From a virus: a stretch of DNA of 32,498 bases. Of this stretch, positions 1,615 to 15,221 are shown piece by piece. The stretch is taken from IMG/VR virus record IMGVR_UViG_3300027365_000371, positions 1 to 32,498 of that record; one strand, given 5' to 3'. The notes under the pieces are model-generated. The model saw nothing but the letters and a program-made list of their open reading frames with translations. It was not told the origin of the DNA and did not search any database. How positions within the stretch are numbered: the stretch's first letter is position 1; every line of letters begins with the position of its first letter. Both the position numbers and the translations under genes were made by a program.

Positions 1615-2093
1615 CACGCAAGCGCTGGAAACCAGTTCAGCCCGCCAGCATGCAGCACGCGATCCGGCTGTGCCTGGACTACGCGCTGCACAAGCACAAC
1701 CGCAGCGTGGCCCGCGTGGCCGAGCTGATCGGCACGTCCGAGTGGACCATTTACAAGTGGATGACCGACGGCTCCATTCCGTCCAAGCGCATCCGCCCGT
1801 TCGAGTTCGCCTGCGACGCCACGTTTATCACGAATTACATCGCCACCAGCGCGCAGAAGCTGGTGATCGACATCCCCGCCGGACGCGCCGGCAGCCAGGA
1901 CGAGCTGCTGGACCTGCAGAACCAGCTTAACGACGCCGTGTCGCTGCTGACCCGCTTCTATCGCGGCGAGGCCGAGGCGGCGGATGTACTGCACGGGGTC
2001 ACCTGTGCGATGCAACAACTGGCCGGCCACCGGGAGAGCGTGCGCAAGCACGACGCCCCGGAGCTGGCGCTGTTCGGAGGAGACGAAGAATGA
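1611..2093 (+). CDS. HTH DNA-binding protein of the early operon
   Basis: A 160-residue product. I chose the ATG at 1611 because GAGGGG (1599-1604) sits at ideal spacing; an upstream in-frame ATG at 1581 lacks such support. Residues about 25-60 (SVARVAELIGTSEWTIYKWM, then PSKRIRPFEFACDATFI) form a helix-turn-helix resembling phage CII-type regulators, though I cannot assign the family firmly. The C-terminal half (DLQNQLNDAVSLLTRFYRGE and onward) is helical and probably mediates oligomerisation. Comparable small HTH proteins sit between ner and A in several Mu-like phages. It probably tunes early transcription; its target is unknown. Confidence 0.6.
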   Translation: MTRKRWKPVQPASMQHAIRLCLDYALHKHNRSVARVAELIGTSEWTIYKWMTDGSIPSKRIRPFEFACDATFITNYIATSAQKLVIDIPAGRAGSQDELLDLQNQLNDAVSLLTRFYRGEAEAADVLHGVTCAMQQLAGHRESVRKHDAPELALFGGDEE

Positions 2094-2149
2094 CAGCAAG
2101 CAAACACCACCCCAGCCGGCGCCGCGCCGGCGTGGAGGGCCGGTCATGA
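2090..2149 (+). CDS. 19-codon leader ORF coupling into transposase A
   Basis: ATG at 2090 overlaps the previous stop, GGAGGAGACGAAG lies upstream as a good ribosome site, and the TGA at 2147-2149 overlaps the transposase ATG at 2146. The product would be MTASKHHPSRRRAGVEGRS. A perfect hairpin lies inside it. More likely a translational coupling leader than a functional protein. Confidence 0.3.
   Translation: MTASKHHPSRRRAGVEGRS
2115..2131 (+). promoter_or_regulatory. Hairpin abutting the transposase ribosome binding site
   Basis: Perfect 7-bp stem GCCGGCG / CGCCGGC with loop CCG. It ends two bases before GGAGGG (2134-2139), the ribosome site of transposase A, so folding could limit access, and ribosomes crossing the 19-codon leader ORF would open it. 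Confidence 0.4.
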
Positions 2150-4146
2150 GTCAGAACTGGTACACCCCGAAGGAGCTGGCCGGGCTTCCTGGTATGCCGG
2201 CTACCCATAGCGCAGTTGTTCGCCGCGCGAAGCGCGACAACTGGGAGAGTCGCAAGCGCACCGGCCGGGGCGGAGGGCGCGAGTACGCCTTCGCGTCTCT
2301 GCCCGTTGAGACCCAGGCGGCCCTGCTGAAAGACGCCAAGCCGGAACCCAAGGCGCCGAAGGTGAGCCGCCCGGCCGCCAGCCGGGGCGTGGTGGATCGG
2401 GAGAGCTTGTGGGCTTCCTATGAGCGCCGCCCCCAGGGCATGAAGGACGAAGCCGCCCGCCGGCTACAGGCCCTGCAGGGTGTGGAGCGCCTGGTCGCCG
2501 AGGGCCAGGGCAAGTCGCACGCCGTCGAGCAGATCGCCAAGGCATTCGGCGAGAGTCGGGCCACCCTCTACCGCTGGCAGAAGGCGGTGAAGGGCGTGGA
2601 CCGCAGCGACTGGCTGGCGGCCCTGGTGCCGGGCTACGTAGGCCGCACCGCCAAGGCCGAGTGCGACCCGCAGGCGTGGGAATACTTCAAGGCCCAGTAC
2701 CTGCGCCCGGAGGCCCCCAGCATCGCGGCCTGTTACGAGTGGACCAAGGAGGCGGCCAAGAAGCACGGCTGGACCGTGCCGGCCAAGCGCACCGTGACCC
2801 GATGGGCCAGCGAGATCCCGACCACCACCCGCGTGCTGATGCGTGAGGGCGAGGAGGCGCTGATGCGCCTGTACCCCAGCCAGCAGCGCACGGTGCGCGA
2901 CCTGCACGCCATGCACTGGATCAACGGCGACGGCTACAAGCACAACGTATTCGTGCGCTTCCCGGATGGCACCATCGACCGCCCCAAGACCTGGTTCTGG
3001 CAGGACGTGTACAGCCGCCGAATCGTGGGCTTCCGCACCGACCGCACCGAGCACACCGACATGATCCGCCTGGCCCTGGGCGACGTGCTGGAGCGCTACG
3101 GCATCCCCGAGCACGTGACGATCGACAACACCCGCGCGGCCGCCAACAAGTGGATGACCGGCGGGGTCAAGACTCGTTACCGCTTCAAGGTGAAGGAGGA
3201 GGACCCGATCGGCCTGATGCCGCAGCTGGGTATCCAGGTGCACTGGACCAGCGTGTTCAAGGGTAAGGGTCACGGCCAGGCCAAGCCGGTGGAGCGCAGC
3301 TTCGGCGTGGGCGGCCTGGGTGAGTATGCCGACAAGCGCTACGAGTTCCGGGGCGCCTACACCGGCCCCAACCCCACCGCCAAGCCGGAGAACTACCAGG
3401 AGCGGGCCATCGAGTTCGCCGAGTTCTGCCAGATCCTGGCCGACGCCATCCGCATGTGGAATGAAATGGAAGGCCGCCGCACCGAGATCTGCGACGGCCG
3501 CCTGAGCTTTGCCCAGGCGTTCGACGAGAGCTACCAGCGCAACGCCGACCGCATCCGCCGCCCGACCACGGCCCAGCGCCGCATGTGGCTGCTGGCCGCC
3601 GAGGCGGTCACCGTCCAGCGGGACAGCAGCATTTCCCTGCACGTGGGCAGCGGCCCGAACGGCAAGAACCGCTACGGCGGCGACGCCCTGATCGACTACA
3701 TCGGCCGCAAGGTGGTGGTGCGCTTCGACCCGGACAACCTGCATTCGGCGGTGTACGCCTACCAGACCGACGGCCGCTACATCGGCGAGATCGAGTGCCA
3801 GTTCGCGGTTGGCTTCGGCGACTCCCGCGCCGCCCGCGAGTGGGCACGCAACCGCACCCAGCGCGGCAAGGCCGCCAAGGCCCAGGCCGAGGCCGAACGC
3901 CGCATGTCCGAAGTGGAAACCCTGGATTACCTGCCCGAGCCCGAGCCCGAGGACACCGCCCCGGTGCAGACCGAGGTTGTGCGCGGCAGCTTCGGCGAGG
4001 CCAAGCGGGTGGTGGGCAGCGACGTGAACCCGAACGGCGACGACGAAAGCCCGGCGGATCGCCACGGCTTCAGCGATCGGATGCTGGAGCTTAGCGCGGC
4101 CTGGATGCGCAGCCACCCCGACGCACCCAAAGCGGAGGACGACTGA
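2146..4146 (+). CDS. A: Mu-like transposase A (DDE recombinase)
   Basis: A 666-residue transposase, close to MuA (663). It cuts and joins phage ends to target DNA during integration and replicative transposition. The N-terminus (NWYTPKELAGLPGMPATHSA, then VRRAKRDNWESRK) is the MuA enhancer-binding HTH; residues about 85-235 form the end-binding Ibeta/gamma domains. The RNase H-like core shows the DDE triad: D262 in WINGDGY, D327 in TIDNTR, E383 in KPVERSFG, aligning with MuA D269, D336 and E392. HWTSVFKGKGHGQAKP and AYTGPNP are near-identical to MuA. The C-terminal part (KVVVRFDP, LHSAVYAYQTDGRYIGE) is the beta-barrel domain, followed by an acidic tail that would contact B and ClpX. Start chosen at ATG 2146, preceded by GGAGGG; an upstream in-frame extension overlaps the previous gene and reads as nonsense. 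Confidence 0.97.
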   Translation: MSQNWYTPKELAGLPGMPATHSAVVRRAKRDNWESRKRTGRGGGREYAFASLPVETQAALLKDAKPEPKAPKVSRPAASRGVVDRESLWASYERRPQGMKDEAARRLQALQGVERLVAEGQGKSHAVEQIAKAFGESRATLYRWQKAVKGVDRSDWLAALVPGYVGRTAKAECDPQAWEYFKAQYLRPEAPSIAACYEWTKEAAKKHGWTVPAKRTVTRWASEIPTTTRVLMREGEEALMRLYPSQQRTVRDLHAMHWINGDGYKHNVFVRFPDGTIDRPKTWFWQDVYSRRIVGFRTDRTEHTDMIRLALGDVLERYGIPEHVTIDNTRAAANKWMTGGVKTRYRFKVKEEDPIGLMPQLGIQVHWTSVFKGKGHGQAKPVERSFGVGGLGEYADKRYEFRGAYTGPNPTAKPENYQERAIEFAEFCQILADAIRMWNEMEGRRTEICDGRLSFAQAFDESYQRNADRIRRPTTAQRRMWLLAAEAVTVQRDSSISLHVGSGPNGKNRYGGDALIDYIGRKVVVRFDPDNLHSAVYAYQTDGRYIGEIECQFAVGFGDSRAAREWARNRTQRGKAAKAQAEAERRMSEVETLDYLPEPEPEDTAPVQTEVVRGSFGEAKRVVGSDVNPNGDDESPADRHGFSDRMLELSAAWMRSHPDAPKAEDD

Positions 4147-5754: not shown

Positions 5755-6116
5755 TGGGCGTGCAACTGGACGAGGCCATCAACGAGCTGGAGGGCCTGCT
5801 GCGGGCCAAGCTGCGCGGCGAGATCCTGGACCACCTGATCGCCAACCGCCACCCGCAGGGCAGCCGCACCATCGCGGACGCCCTGGGCAAGCCGCACCAC
5901 GCGGTACAGCGGGCGGTGTGCGAGCTGGTCCTGCAGGGGCGCATCACCCAGGTGGCGCGCGGCGCCGATCGCAAGCCGGTGTACCGCCCGGTGGAGGTCG
6001 GCCCGTGCGAGTGGTGCGGGCTGGTCAGCCACCACCTGGTGGCCGGTGAGTGCCCGAGCTGCAAGACCCTGACCCTTGGCCTGGCGCGTCCGAGTCTGGC
6101 GCGCCTGGTCTGCTGA
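5754..6116 (+). CDS. Winged-HTH plus zinc-ribbon small protein
   Basis: A 120-residue protein; ATG at 5754 overlaps the preceding stop and follows a GGAGGG site, so the long upstream extension in this frame is discarded. Residues about 20-70 (GEILDHLIANRHPQGSRTIA, then AVQRAVCELVLQGRITQVA) look like a winged helix-turn-helix. The C-terminal part has two CxxC pairs, C85/C88 (CEWC) and C100/C103 (CPSC), consistent with a zinc ribbon. A DNA-binding regulator is likely; the target is unknown. Confidence 0.65.
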   Translation: MGVQLDEAINELEGLLRAKLRGEILDHLIANRHPQGSRTIADALGKPHHAVQRAVCELVLQGRITQVARGADRKPVYRPVEVGPCEWCGLVSHHLVAGECPSCKTLTLGLARPSLARLVC

Positions 6117-9000: not shown

Positions 9001-9397
9001 ACAGAAACGACAAGCGCCGCCGGCGGACTGGTTCGAGAGCGTGGTGGCCGAGGGTATCGCCAAGCTGTACGTGCTGCGCCTGGAGAGCGCCCCGGCGGCC
9101 GATACCCTGGACGGCGTGGAGCTGGTGTGGGTGGAGGCCCTTTGGTACAGCAACGTCGCCTGGGACGAGGAGCTGGACACCGAACGCCTGCGCCAGGCGT
9201 TCCGCGCCCTGACCCAGCGGCTGCACCGCTGGCCGGCCCCGCGTGAGCTGATGGAGCACCTGCCCGCCCGGCCCAAGCGCCGCGAGTTGCCGCCGCCACC
9301 GCAAACGCCCGAGCAGAAGGCGAAGGCCGTGGCGCAGCTGGCCAAGCTGCGGGCCATGATGAAGGACTTGAACCTGGGGGGAAGTCGTGGAAATTGA
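8993..9397 (+). CDS. Hypothetical early protein
   Basis: A 134-residue protein from a GTG at 8993, overlapping the previous gene, with GAGGG just upstream. The N-terminal two thirds are helical with many Trp residues (DGVELVWVEALWYSNVAWDE); a proline-rich linker (RRELPPPPQTPEQ) leads to a basic terminal helix (KAKAVAQLAKLRAMMKDLNL). No family recognised. It forms a pair with the CxxC protein, so the two may act together. Confidence 0.65.
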   Translation: MAEQKRQAPPADWFESVVAEGIAKLYVLRLESAPAADTLDGVELVWVEALWYSNVAWDEELDTERLRQAFRALTQRLHRWPAPRELMEHLPARPKRRELPPPPQTPEQKAKAVAQLAKLRAMMKDLNLGGSRGN

Positions 9398-9776
9398 CAT
9401 CGACCAACTGCCGCAGAGTGCGGCGGAGATCGTGGACGTGGTGGGCGTGGAGGCCGCCCTGCGCCTGGTGGAGGCGTGGGGCGGTGTCCGCTTGTACGTG
9501 CCTCAGCAGATGCCCGAGGACCACCTGCTGGTGTCTACCCTGGGCCGGGGCGAGGCCGACCAACTGGCCGAGCGCTACGGCGGCGAGACCATCCAGATCC
9601 CGCGCTGCCTGCGTGCCCTGCGGGCGGTGCGCAACTGCCGCATCCGCGCCGAGCGCCACGACGGCGCCAGCCCGGCGCTGCTGGCCCTGCGCTACGGGCT
9701 GACCGAGCGCCAGGTGTATGCGATCATCGCCGCTGCCGACGAGCCGGTGGACGACCGCCAACAGTCCCTCCTCTAG
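9387..9776 (+). CDS. mor: Mor/C-family transcription activator
   Basis: A 129-residue activator of the Mor family, last gene of the early operon. Mu Mor (129 aa) binds the middle promoter as a dimer and recruits RNA polymerase where the -35 box is poor. Residues 1-75 form the dimerisation part (PQSAAEIVDVVGVEAALRLV, then RLYVP with LGRGEADQLAERYGGETIQIP). Residues about 95-117 (SPALLALRYGLTERQVYAII) are the helix-turn-helix. Start is GTG 9387 preceded by GGGGGGAAG. The two promoter-like repeats at 9829 and 18166 are its likely targets. No separate C-like activator appears in the window, so Mor may run late expression directly. Confidence 0.88.
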   Translation: MEIDIDQLPQSAAEIVDVVGVEAALRLVEAWGGVRLYVPQQMPEDHLLVSTLGRGEADQLAERYGGETIQIPRCLRALRAVRNCRIRAERHDGASPALLALRYGLTERQVYAIIAAADEPVDDRQQSLL

Positions 9777-10852: not shown

Positions 10853-11442
10853 TGGATTGGTCTGATGTGGGCGGCATTGTCGCCAAGGCGGCCCCCCTGG
10901 TGGGGTCCATTCTGGGCGGCCCGGCCGGGGGCGCCGTGGGCGGCCTGGTGGCCAAGGCCCTGGGCACCGATGCCACCCCCGAGGCAGCCGCCGAGGCGCT
11001 GAAGGCGGACCCGGCAGCGCTGGAGCGTGTGCGCAAGCTGGAGATGGAGAACGAGCGGGAGCTGACCCGCATGCACCTGGAGGCGGAGACCACTCGCCTG
11101 GCCGAGGTGAACAAGACCATGCGCGCCGAGGCCGCGAGCAACGACGCCTACGTGCGTCGCTGGCGCCCCACCTTCGGCTACGCCGTGGCGCTGGCCTGGG
11201 TGATCCAGGCGCTGGGCATCATCGGCGCCAGCCTGTACGCGGCCATCGCCTCGCCCACCGAGGCCGGGCCGATCATCAACGCCGTGGGCAACATGGTCTC
11301 CGCCCTGGGCATGCAGTGGGCGGTGGCGCTCTCCGTGCTGGGCGTGAACGTGGCCAAGCGCAGCCAGGACAAGCAGGTGGCCGCCGGGCAGACGCCCGAT
11401 GGCGGCCTGCTGGGCGCGCTCGCCAAGCGCCTTGGCCGGTGA
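10852..11442 (+). CDS. Holin of 3-TM family
   Basis: A 196-residue membrane protein of the 3-TM holin family (GTA_holin_3TM type). The Gly/Ala-rich N-terminus (PLVGSILGGPAGGAVGGLVA) is followed by a charged coiled region (ERVRKLEMENERELTRMHLE), the signature RRWRPTFGYAVALAW with hydrophobic segments at about 105-125, and a segment near 140-160. It would form membrane lesions that release or activate the endolysin. It overlaps the endolysin stop by TGATG. Confidence 0.85.
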   Translation: MDWSDVGGIVAKAAPLVGSILGGPAGGAVGGLVAKALGTDATPEAAAEALKADPAALERVRKLEMENERELTRMHLEAETTRLAEVNKTMRAEAASNDAYVRRWRPTFGYAVALAWVIQALGIIGASLYAAIASPTEAGPIINAVGNMVSALGMQWAVALSVLGVNVAKRSQDKQVAAGQTPDGGLLGALAKRLGR

Positions 11443-12033: not shown

Positions 12034-12333
12034 ATGAGCTTTCAAGATTTCGAGACGGAAGGCCGCCGCCTGGGCGTGCTGCGCATCCTGTCGCGGCGCA
12101 ACGAGTACACCACCAACGAGTACAGCCTGAACGACGAGCTGGCCGGGGCCTATGCCCATAACGTCAGCCGTGACCGGCTGCACGCGGATCTGGCCTGGCT
12201 GGAGGAGCAGGGCCTGGTGATTGTCCAGCAGCCCCGCGCCGGCTGGATCGTGACCCTGACCGCCCGTGGTGGCGATGTCGCCGCTGGCCGGGCCAACGCC
12301 CCCGGCGTGGCACGCCCGCGTCCGGGGGTGTGA
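12034..12333 (+). CDS. Winged-helix protein, Mu gp26-like (VpaChn25_0724 family)
   Basis: A 99-residue protein with a winged-helix look: RLGVLRILSRRNEYTTNEYS, then VSRDRLHADLAWLEEQGLVI and AGWIVTLTARG. It matches the small family placed between DUF2730 and DUF3486 in Mu-like phages. DNA binding is likely; because the next genes are packaging genes, it may assist terminase or regulate late transcription. Function not established. Confidence 0.75.
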   Translation: MSFQDFETEGRRLGVLRILSRRNEYTTNEYSLNDELAGAYAHNVSRDRLHADLAWLEEQGLVIVQQPRAGWIVTLTARGGDVAAGRANAPGVARPRPGV

Positions 12334-12334
12334 G

Positions 12335-12886
12335 ATGCCCAAGCGATCCAAGGTCTACGAGCTGCCGCCGGAGCTACGCGACGAGCTGAACGAGCGCCTG
12401 GTCAGTAGTGGCTTTCAAGGCTACGAGCAGATGGCCAAGTGGCTGGAAGAGCGCGGCTTCAAGGTGTCGCGTTCTTCCGTTCAGCGCTACGGCCAGGACC
12501 TGCAGGAAGAGTTCGAGATGGCCATGGGCGACGTGCGCAAGACCACCGAGATGGCCAAGGCGTTCACCGAATCCGACGACGACAGCAAGGGCAGCCTAGT
12601 GGATGCCACCGCCCGGATCGTCCAGGAGCAGCTGCTGCGCATCACCATCGCGCTGCGCAAGGCCGAGCACGAACCCGAGAAGGCCGCCAAGTACATGGCC
12701 AGCATCACCCACGCCCTGGCCGACATCGGCCGCATGAGCCTGGGCCAGAAGAAGTGGGCGCGCGAGGTGCGCCGCGAGGTCGCCCAGGAAGCCGCCGACA
12801 AGGCCGCCGAGGTGGCCAAGCGCGGCGGGCTGTCGGCCGATATGGTCAACAACCTGCGCCGCGAGCTGCTGGGCATCGCCAAGTAA
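12335..12886 (+). CDS. DUF3486 protein, probable small terminase subunit (Mu gp27)
   Basis: A 183-residue protein. PKRSKVYELPPELRDELNER, then GYEQMAKWLEERGFKVSRSS and VQRYG form the DUF3486 N-terminal HTH; the remaining helical region (VQEQLLRITIALRKAEHEPE and onward) would form the oligomer. In Mu the equivalent gene lies directly before the large terminase and is believed to be the DNA-recognition subunit. Here the two are separated by an inserted methyltransferase gene. ATG 12335 follows the previous stop closely. Confidence 0.85.
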   Translation: MPKRSKVYELPPELRDELNERLVSSGFQGYEQMAKWLEERGFKVSRSSVQRYGQDLQEEFEMAMGDVRKTTEMAKAFTESDDDSKGSLVDATARIVQEQLLRITIALRKAEHEPEKAAKYMASITHALADIGRMSLGQKKWAREVRREVAQEAADKAAEVAKRGGLSADMVNNLRRELLGIAK

Positions 12887-12907: not shown

Positions 12908-13651
12908 ATGCAGACACTGGATGCCGACACCGCCCAGCTGATCCAAGGCGACGCCCTGACCACCCTGGTCGAGCTGGCGCCGGAGTCGGTGGACGCGCTG
13001 ATCACCGACCCTCCCTATTCGAGCGGCGGCATGTTTCGCGGCGACCGCGTGCAGGACACCGGCAACAAGTACCTGAACACCGGCGCGCGGCACAGCGCCC
13101 CGAGCTGGCCGGGCGACACCCGCGACCAGCGCGCCTACGCGCTGTGGTGTGAGCGCTGGTTAAGCGCCAGTTATCGCGCCCTTAAACGGGGGGGGGTGGT
13201 CGCTGTGTTCTGCGACTGGCGGCAGCTGCCGACCGTCTCCGATGCCATCCAGGTGGCCGGCTTCGTGCTGCGCGGCATCCTGGTGTGGGACAAGACCGAG
13301 GGCACCCGCCCGGTCAAGGGCTGGCACCGGCAGCAGGCCGAGTTCGTCCTGACCGCGAGCAAGGGGCCGCGCCTCAAGGCCGGCCCGGAGGCGCCGGCAC
13401 TGCCCGGCGTGGTGCGCTGCGCCCCGCGCAAGGGCGAGAAGCTGCACCAGGTGGGCAAGCCGGTGTCGCTGATGGAGGAGGTGATCCGCCTGGCGCCCGA
13501 GGGTGGCACGGTGCTGGACCCGTTCATGGGGTCAGCCACCACCGGCGTGGCCGCGCTGGCGTCCGGCCGGACCTTCGTGGGGGTGGAGATCGACCCGCAC
13601 TACTACGCCGTGGCCACCGAGCGGCTGCGCAAACTGGCCGATCCGGCCTGA
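12908..13651 (+). CDS. Orphan DNA methyltransferase (N6-adenine/N4-cytosine), with poly-G tract
   Basis: A 247-residue SAM-dependent enzyme of the N6/N4 Mtase family (PF01555). Catalytic motif IV is DPPY at 34-37; the SAM-binding motif DPFMGSATTG is at 204-213, followed by FVGVEIDPHYY. Motif order (IV before I) marks the beta class. No restriction partner is present, so it probably protects phage DNA or alters host methylation. It is inserted between the terminase subunits. Residues 94-97 are encoded by nine consecutive G (13188-13196); one base gained or lost there would destroy the SAM-binding half. Surrounding codons (TTA, AGT, TAT, CTT, AAA) differ from neighbours. Target sequence unknown. 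Confidence 0.92.
   Translation: MQTLDADTAQLIQGDALTTLVELAPESVDALITDPPYSSGGMFRGDRVQDTGNKYLNTGARHSAPSWPGDTRDQRAYALWCERWLSASYRALKRGGVVAVFCDWRQLPTVSDAIQVAGFVLRGILVWDKTEGTRPVKGWHRQQAEFVLTASKGPRLKAGPEAPALPGVVRCAPRKGEKLHQVGKPVSLMEEVIRLAPEGGTVLDPFMGSATTGVAALASGRTFVGVEIDPHYYAVATERLRKLADPA
13188..13196 (+). repeat. Nine-G homopolymer inside methyltransferase gene
   Basis: Nine consecutive G encode the end of Arg94, Gly95, Gly96 and the start of Val97. Such tracts are classical slipped-strand sites. In this genome Gly is usually GGC, so the GGG GGG pair is not the preferred coding. Confidence 0.9.
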
Positions 13652-13664
13652 TGGGGTGCCTGGT

Positions 13665-15221
13665 ATGACCGACGTTCCCGCCCGCCTGCCGGCCACCCAT
13701 GACGCCGACGCCCCGCCGCCGGTGCTGTTGGGCTACCAGCAGGCGTGGATTGCCGACGATAGCCAGCTGAAGGTGTCCGAGAAGTCGCGCCGCACGGGTC
13801 TGACCTGGGCGGAGGCATCGGACGACGTGCTGATCGCGGCGAGCAGCAAGGCCGCCGGCGGCCAGAACGTCTATTACATCGGCTACAACCAGGACATGGC
13901 CATCGAGTACGTGGAGGCGTGCGGCATGTGGGCGCGCGTGTTCAACCACGCGGCCAGCACCGTCGAGGAAGGGATCTGGGAAGACGACGGCGACGACAAG
14001 AACATCAAGACCTTTACCATCAAGTTCCCCGACAGCGGCCACCGCATCGTGGCGCTGTCCAGCCGCCCGGCCAACCTGCGCGGCAAGCAGGGCGTGGTGG
14101 TGATCGACGAGGCGGCGTTCCACGACAAGCTGGACGAGCTGCTGAAGGCGGCCCTGGCGCTGCTGATCTGGGGCGGCAAGGTGCGTGTGATCAGCACCCA
14201 CAACGGCGAGCGCAACCCCTTCAACGAGCTGATCAACGACATCCGCGCCGGCAAGCGCCGGGGCAGCGTGCAACGCATCACCTTCAAGGAGGCTGTGGCC
14301 CAGGGCCTCTATCAGCGCGTGTGCCTGCGCCTGGGCAAGGACTGGACGGCCGAGGGCGAGGCCGAGTGGATGGACAGCGTGTACGCCTTCTACGGCGACG
14401 CTGCCGGCGAGGAGCTGGACGTGGTGCCGTCCCAGGGCTCCGGGGCCTGGCTGTCCCGTGCGCTGATCGAGGCGCGCATGGTGGCCGGCCCGCCGGTGTT
14501 GCGCCTGACGATGCCCGACGAGTTCAAGCACTGGGCGCCGCACCTGCGCGAGGCGGAGATCCGCGACTGGTGCGAGCGCGAGCTGCGCCCGCTGCTGGCG
14601 GATCTGCCGCCGGAGCTGCTGGTGTCGGTGGGCGAGGACTTCGGCCGGGTCTCCGACCTGACCGTGATCACGCCCATGGTCACAGGCCAGGACCTCAAGC
14701 GCCGGGTGCCGTTCGTGGTGGAGCTGGGCAACATGCCGTTCGAGCAGCAGCGCCAGGTGCTGTTCTATATCTGCGACCGCTTCCCGCGCTTCCACGTGGG
14801 CGCCCTGGACGCCCGGGGCAACGGCGCCTACCTGGCCGAGGTGGCCGCCCAGCAGTACGGCGCGCGCATCCATGAGATCCAGTTCACCGAGGGCTGGTAC
14901 CGCGAGCACATGCCGCCGCTGAAGGCCGCCTTCGAGGACGGCGAGCTGGAGATCCCCAAGGACTCGCACCTGCTGGACGACCTGCGGGCGATCAAGCTGG
15001 TGGACGGCGTGGCGCGCCTGCCCAAGAGCACCGGCCAGCAGAAGCGCCACGGCGACGGCGCGATCAGCCTGGCGCTGGCCTACTACGCCACCCGCCAGGA
15101 CGGGGTGGAAATCGAATTTCGCAGCACCGGCATTCAGCGCAGCGGCTACCAGGCCGGGCGCGTCCAGCAGGACGTGGGCTGGGGCGCCGTCGGTGGCGGC
15201 ACAGACATGGGAGGCTTCTAA
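13665..15221 (+). CDS. Terminase large subunit (Mu gp28-like)
   Basis: A 518-residue packaging motor. The ATPase part has a Walker A-like KSRRTGLT (40-47), Walker B VVVIDE (144-149) and a likely coupling motif in ISTHNGERNPF. The RNase H-like nuclease shows acidic residues D325 (VGEDFGR), D382 (ALDARGNG) and D464 (RHGDGAISLALAYY). Mu-type terminases package by headful, starting at the left phage end and running into host DNA. ATG 13665 is preferred; the longer frame runs back through the methyltransferase gene. Confidence 0.93.
   Translation: MTDVPARLPATHDADAPPPVLLGYQQAWIADDSQLKVSEKSRRTGLTWAEASDDVLIAASSKAAGGQNVYYIGYNQDMAIEYVEACGMWARVFNHAASTVEEGIWEDDGDDKNIKTFTIKFPDSGHRIVALSSRPANLRGKQGVVVIDEAAFHDKLDELLKAALALLIWGGKVRVISTHNGERNPFNELINDIRAGKRRGSVQRITFKEAVAQGLYQRVCLRLGKDWTAEGEAEWMDSVYAFYGDAAGEELDVVPSQGSGAWLSRALIEARMVAGPPVLRLTMPDEFKHWAPHLREAEIRDWCERELRPLLADLPPELLVSVGEDFGRVSDLTVITPMVTGQDLKRRVPFVVELGNMPFEQQRQVLFYICDRFPRFHVGALDARGNGAYLAEVAAQQYGARIHEIQFTEGWYREHMPPLKAAFEDGELEIPKDSHLLDDLRAIKLVDGVARLPKSTGQQKRHGDGAISLALAYYATRQDGVEIEFRSTGIQRSGYQAGRVQQDVGWGAVGGGTDMGGF

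Follow-up and report, generated by a model that had tools for sequence, protein, structure and literature searches.

Does a run of nine guanines inside the DNA methyltransferase gene of a transposable phage serve as a length-variable switch of DNA modification, or is it a homopolymer that arose by chance? The question is raised by a 32,498-nucleotide IMG/VR virus record (IMGVR_UViG_3300027365_000371), here called the window. Profile matches (phrog_310, phrog_296, and phrog_836, plus portal, protease, major head, and sheath) assign the record to a Mu-like transposable phage, with MuA transposase, MuB, C-like activator, and Mu-type head and tail genes all present.

The methyltransferase gene and its G tract

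Genes on the plus strand include the MuA-type transposase that marks the record as Mu-like (1984-4146; phrog_310, E 7e-172), a MuB-like protein, a C-like late transcriptional activator (9387-9776; phrog_836, E 4e-39), an endolysin, the small (terS, 12266-12886; phrog_426, E 9e-42) and large (terL, 13665-15221; phrog_2, E 1e-33) terminase subunits, and the portal, head protease, major head, tail sheath, tape measure, and baseplate genes. The methyltransferase gene (12908-13651, plus strand) is an intact open reading frame of 247 amino acids in the late gene block, flanked by terS and terL as the preliminary description had placed it. The lysis-packaging block to which it belongs lies on the same strand as the activator gene and 3′ of it. 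The product matches Pfam N6_N4_Mtase (PF01555; E 2.1e-30, 106.8 bits against a cut-off of 26.7), phrog_67 (E 1.5e-60), and methyltransferases in the PDB, and its motif IV, DPPY (residues 34-37), stands N-terminal to the SAM-binding motif I, DPFMGS (residues 204-209), which is the beta-class order. By Pfam score and motif order, it is classified as a beta-class N6/N4 DNA methyltransferase, with methyltransferase activity predicted. A scan of the adjoining and selected genes found no cognate restriction gene alongside, the immediate neighbors being terS and terL and the upstream genes belonging to lysis or unknown phage families, and the enzyme is treated here as an orphan in that sense.

Chromohalobacter phage YPCBV-1 offers a comparison for the packaging block, as its terL is 88% identical in protein to that of the window. 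Its gene table shows no methyltransferase separating terS from terL, which share an ATGA overlap, so the gene was probably inserted into the packaging block of the window's phage. The YPCBV-1 terL (OP380511.1; L155, 3001-4557) is annotated as a DUF3486 family protein, a name shared with its neighbor in the terS position and probably a misannotation.

The tract occupies exactly 13188-13196 on the plus strand, within LKRGGVVAVFCDW, and is read as AAA cGG GGG GGG Gtg, giving K-R-G-G-V at codons 93-97. Its position at codons 94-97, between DPPY and the SAM-binding motif, is thus confirmed. Frame computation places nine G in frame (ON) and eight, ten, or eleven out of frame. With eight or eleven G, a stop is predicted at window position 13352 after 147-148 amino acids; with ten or seven, another frame is predicted to run to 13668 and yield 252-253 amino acids, and motif I is lost in either case.

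G/C runs of five number 47 in the window and those of six number three; lengths seven and eight are absent, and the tract is the single run of nine. With about six G8 matches expected from dinucleotide shuffling of the window, the tract is not unusual in terms of base composition alone. When synonymous codons were redrawn from the phage's own usage, a run of at least nine appeared in this gene in 0.3% of trials and anywhere in the genome in approximately 48%. Given the genome-wide rate, the tract alone is weak evidence and suggestive only, and it is retention and length variation that carry the weight. The preliminary description had also pointed to atypical local codons, but TTA, AGT, and CTT become CTG, AGC, and CTC or CTG in relatives; these codons are not part of the feature, and that argument was dropped.

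Retention and length change among relatives

The search turned up close homologues in a Halothiobacillus MAG (L002), an Ectothiorhodospiraceae MAG (L003), and three IMG/VR contigs (L007, L008, and L009). All five keep the tract, down to 85% protein identity in L003, with nine G and an intact enzyme in L002, L007, and L003 and ten G and a frameshift in L008 and L009. L002 and L007 encode an identical protein and probably represent the same phage. Among the G/C runs of each of the five records examined, none exceeds the tract in length and no other reaches nine. L003 carries TGG in place of CGG before the tract, exchanging arginine for tryptophan, so that the residue is altered while the nine G are kept, and GGG glycine codons outside the tract are kept poorly (one of six between the window and L002, three of seven between the window and L003). 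The L003 gene (G002:C42, 11634-12379) lies upstream of terS rather than between terS and terL, and still the tract is kept.

The position of the methyltransferase gene therefore differs among related phages (G002:C42 11634-12379 against the window). The phage of L003 (L065, contig G002:C42) has two more G8 runs, at 10979-10986 and 5836-5843, one directly after an ATG (ATGACGGGGGGGGCGATG) and the other immediately ahead of an ATG; runs of this kind are absent from the window.

No further close homologues were found in 27 and 54 genomes from the orders of the two host MAGs. Homologues at approximately 50% identity mostly lack the tract and use mixed codons, which confines the switch to the lineage of the window. 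The preliminary description had held that an invariant length, or mixed codons among relatives, would speak against phase variation: close relatives keep a pure G tract of nine or ten, an outcome in favor of phase variation, and mixed codons occur in the homologues at about 50% identity. A general enrichment of long G/C runs throughout the methyltransferase family was not demonstrated, with runs of at least eight numbering four in 56,900 bases inside the genes and 11 in 272,890 outside. Other family members have a G9 tract in frame before the DPF motif (L105, 2581-2589) and an A8 tract in the VWDK region (L080, near 2358).

The ten-G copies, L008 and L009, encode 253-amino-acid products unrelated to the enzyme after about residue 96. 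Alignment of the window with L008 spans 4,865 columns with 326 substitutions, and its single gap is the extra G in the tract. The bases flanking the tract in L008 equal those of the window on both sides and in L009 differ on both sides, which places ten G on two haplotypes; recombination prevents a count of independent G10 events, and the two OFF copies, the only ones in the close lineage, may go back to a single ancestral event. In the G10 copies, purifying selection acts on both halves of the gene, with dN/dS of 0.02-0.32 (for the most part 0.1-0.2) to either side of the tract when these copies are compared with each other and with ON copies, and no second lesion is present. Within an 80-locus set of the family, the two G10 loci alone have their halves in different frames (Fisher p 0.002), and a stop interrupts the match of one further locus, L123. 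The contigs with ten G come from metagenome assembly, where homopolymer errors are possible. Repeat length differs among close relatives whose gene is otherwise intact and selected, a pattern expected of a contingency locus.

A proposed slippage switch and its alternatives

It is quite probable, judged from these comparisons, that the G9 tract is a slipped-strand contingency locus that would switch late methylation of progeny DNA. The earlier reading of the gene as a phase-variable methyltransferase is supported by a pure G tract kept at nine or ten, the frameshift in the G10 copies, and purifying selection on both halves, with the length variation seen between records of relatives. As the phage or prophage replicates, slipping of DNA polymerase along the G run would add or remove a G, giving in-frame lengths of nine, and also six or twelve, and out-of-frame lengths of eight, ten, or eleven. 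ON phages would make the methyltransferase while terminase is made and package methylated genomes, and those packaged by OFF phages would be unmethylated. A burst containing both would then hedge between hosts that cut unmodified DNA and hosts with type IV enzymes that cut modified DNA. Slippage as the cause, its reversibility, methyltransferase activity, late expression, and a bet-hedging benefit are what we infer for this locus.

The location of the gene in the lysis-packaging block behind the C-like activator suggests that the enzyme should act as progeny DNA is made and packaged, and for the same reason an effect on host expression, as in a phasevarion, is less likely than one on virion DNA. 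Both host MAGs encode MutS, and slippage may therefore be slow and its rate modest. A G tract in Streptomyces pglX has been linked to switching at 1e-2 to 1e-4 (PMC4365076), a rate that need not carry over to a phage.

Of the competing accounts, the one with the most in its favor, although unlikely, sees no selected switch: the tract would be a chance homopolymer, and the G10 copies would be common loss-of-function mutants or genes in decay. A run of at least nine does turn up somewhere in about half of codon-redrawn genomes, most of the methyltransferase family does without the tract, and G9 runs are mutational hotspots regardless. Chance fits poorly, however, with the persistence of all nine G throughout the close relatives, where other GGG codons have turned over and the gene does not always occupy the same position, and decay fits poorly with purifying selection on both sides of the tract and the lack of a second lesion in the G10 copies. 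That ten G is an assembly or sequencing error, and the tract fixed at nine, is less probable still. The two G10 copies come from metagenome contigs whose sample numbers lie close together, and long G runs are error-prone, yet the L008-window alignment has no other gap in its 4,865 columns, ten G occurs in two different haplotypes, and the homologue in complete Bordetella phage records, each deposited separately, shows the same kind of variation.

Of the three accounts, the most improbable is programmed slippage, ribosomal or transcriptional, at the tract, which would yield two products from one genome length. Slippage at a pure G run is plausible, and the shifted frame does reach 253 amino acids in the window, L002, L008, and L009, ending in the window in ATGA at the start of terL. 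The shifted product is not conserved, however; in L003, its frame closes early, with a stop at 102 amino acids, and programmed frameshifting was rejected on this ground. The genomic tract length itself varies, and the ATGA ending matches the terS/terL junction of YPCBV-1, a phage without the insert. A slipped-strand switch of tract length in the DNA remains the preferred reading. If correct, a random self-modification switch would explain how one clone copes both with hosts that punish unmodified DNA and with hosts that punish modified DNA, and mixed methylation would be predicted among sister virions, directly measurable by long-read sequencing.

Parallel tracts and known systems

A G tract within the coding frame is also found in bpm, the adenine methyltransferase gene of Bordetella phages and a homologue of the window's gene (45-47% amino acid identity), in which deposited genomes differ in length: eight G in BPP-1 and vB_BbrP_003, nine in BIP-1, and ten in BMP-1, with only eight in frame. 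Unlike the window's tract, which precedes FCDW, that of bpm lies just before DPFAG, and bpm adjoins a cI/cro-like region of a phage that is not Mu-like, whereas the window gene sits in the terminase block. From these differences in tract site and gene context, the window's switch probably arose separately from that of bpm.

An IMG/VR scan for G tracts before DPFAG returned 31 loci with at least eight G and 10 with seven at fixed spacing. The set of 41 viral genes in which a G tract precedes methylase motif I holds some near-duplicates and is not all of the window's subfamily, so that the numbers are indicative: one of 10 was out of frame at seven G, four of 17 at eight, and nine of 14 at nine or more (p 0.006 for nine or more against seven and eight). 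The last share approaches the two thirds that a freely running tract should give. One member of the set, L038, lies near a contig end and was called from an upstream motif. At the window's own tract site, L022 (G8) is out of frame and L023 and L024 (both G8) are in frame. An A8 control at the same motif gave three loci only, which are not clearly methyltransferases.

Two pairs of similar viral methylase genes differ in the length of the tract before DPFAG, with 11 G in L033 and 13 in L035, and 11 in L031 and eight in L044; of these, L035 is in frame and the others are out of frame. Nine environmental bpm-like genes (L158, L161, L167, L032, L039, L043, L047, L048, and L055) carry seven, eight, or nine G at the BPP-1 site, some in frame and others out of frame, and L161 shares its IMG sample number with L009.

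There are signs that viral methyltransferases acquire G tracts repeatedly. The chances appear evenly balanced that phage DNA methyltransferases have repeatedly acquired poly-G contingency loci, at sites that differ, as a general means of countering restriction through which one genotype yields virions with and without the modification.

In bacteria, methyltransferases switched by homopolymer tracts are a familiar phenomenon. Phasevarions, driven by Mod and type IIG enzymes of Haemophilus, Neisseria, Helicobacter, and Campylobacter, likewise depend on simple-repeat slippage in a methyltransferase coding frame, but the window's enzyme is an orphan on a transposable phage, and its likely target is virion DNA, not a host regulon. 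Mu itself has late DNA modification (mom/com) and, separately, reversible switching of tail fibers by Gin inversion; Mom is not of the window's methyltransferase family, however, and neither Mom nor Gin uses a homopolymer tract. PglX of the Streptomyces coelicolor Pgl system is likewise a DNA methyltransferase of a GC-rich organism with a G tract in its gene, and its switching is attributed to changes in the length of that tract (PMC4365076), but it is a host defense gene rather than a phage counter-defense and belongs to an unrelated system. The consulted portions of a 2026 review of methyltransferase regulation name no phase-variable phage enzyme (PMC13076061), and literature searches found no direct report of a phage-encoded phase-variable methyltransferase. 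The bpm gene of BPP-1, by its deposited sequences, is nevertheless a phage precedent, with the same tract variation in a phage homologue. New here are a tract at a new site, its place in the packaging block of a transposable phage, and the accompanying evidence of retention and frame switching.
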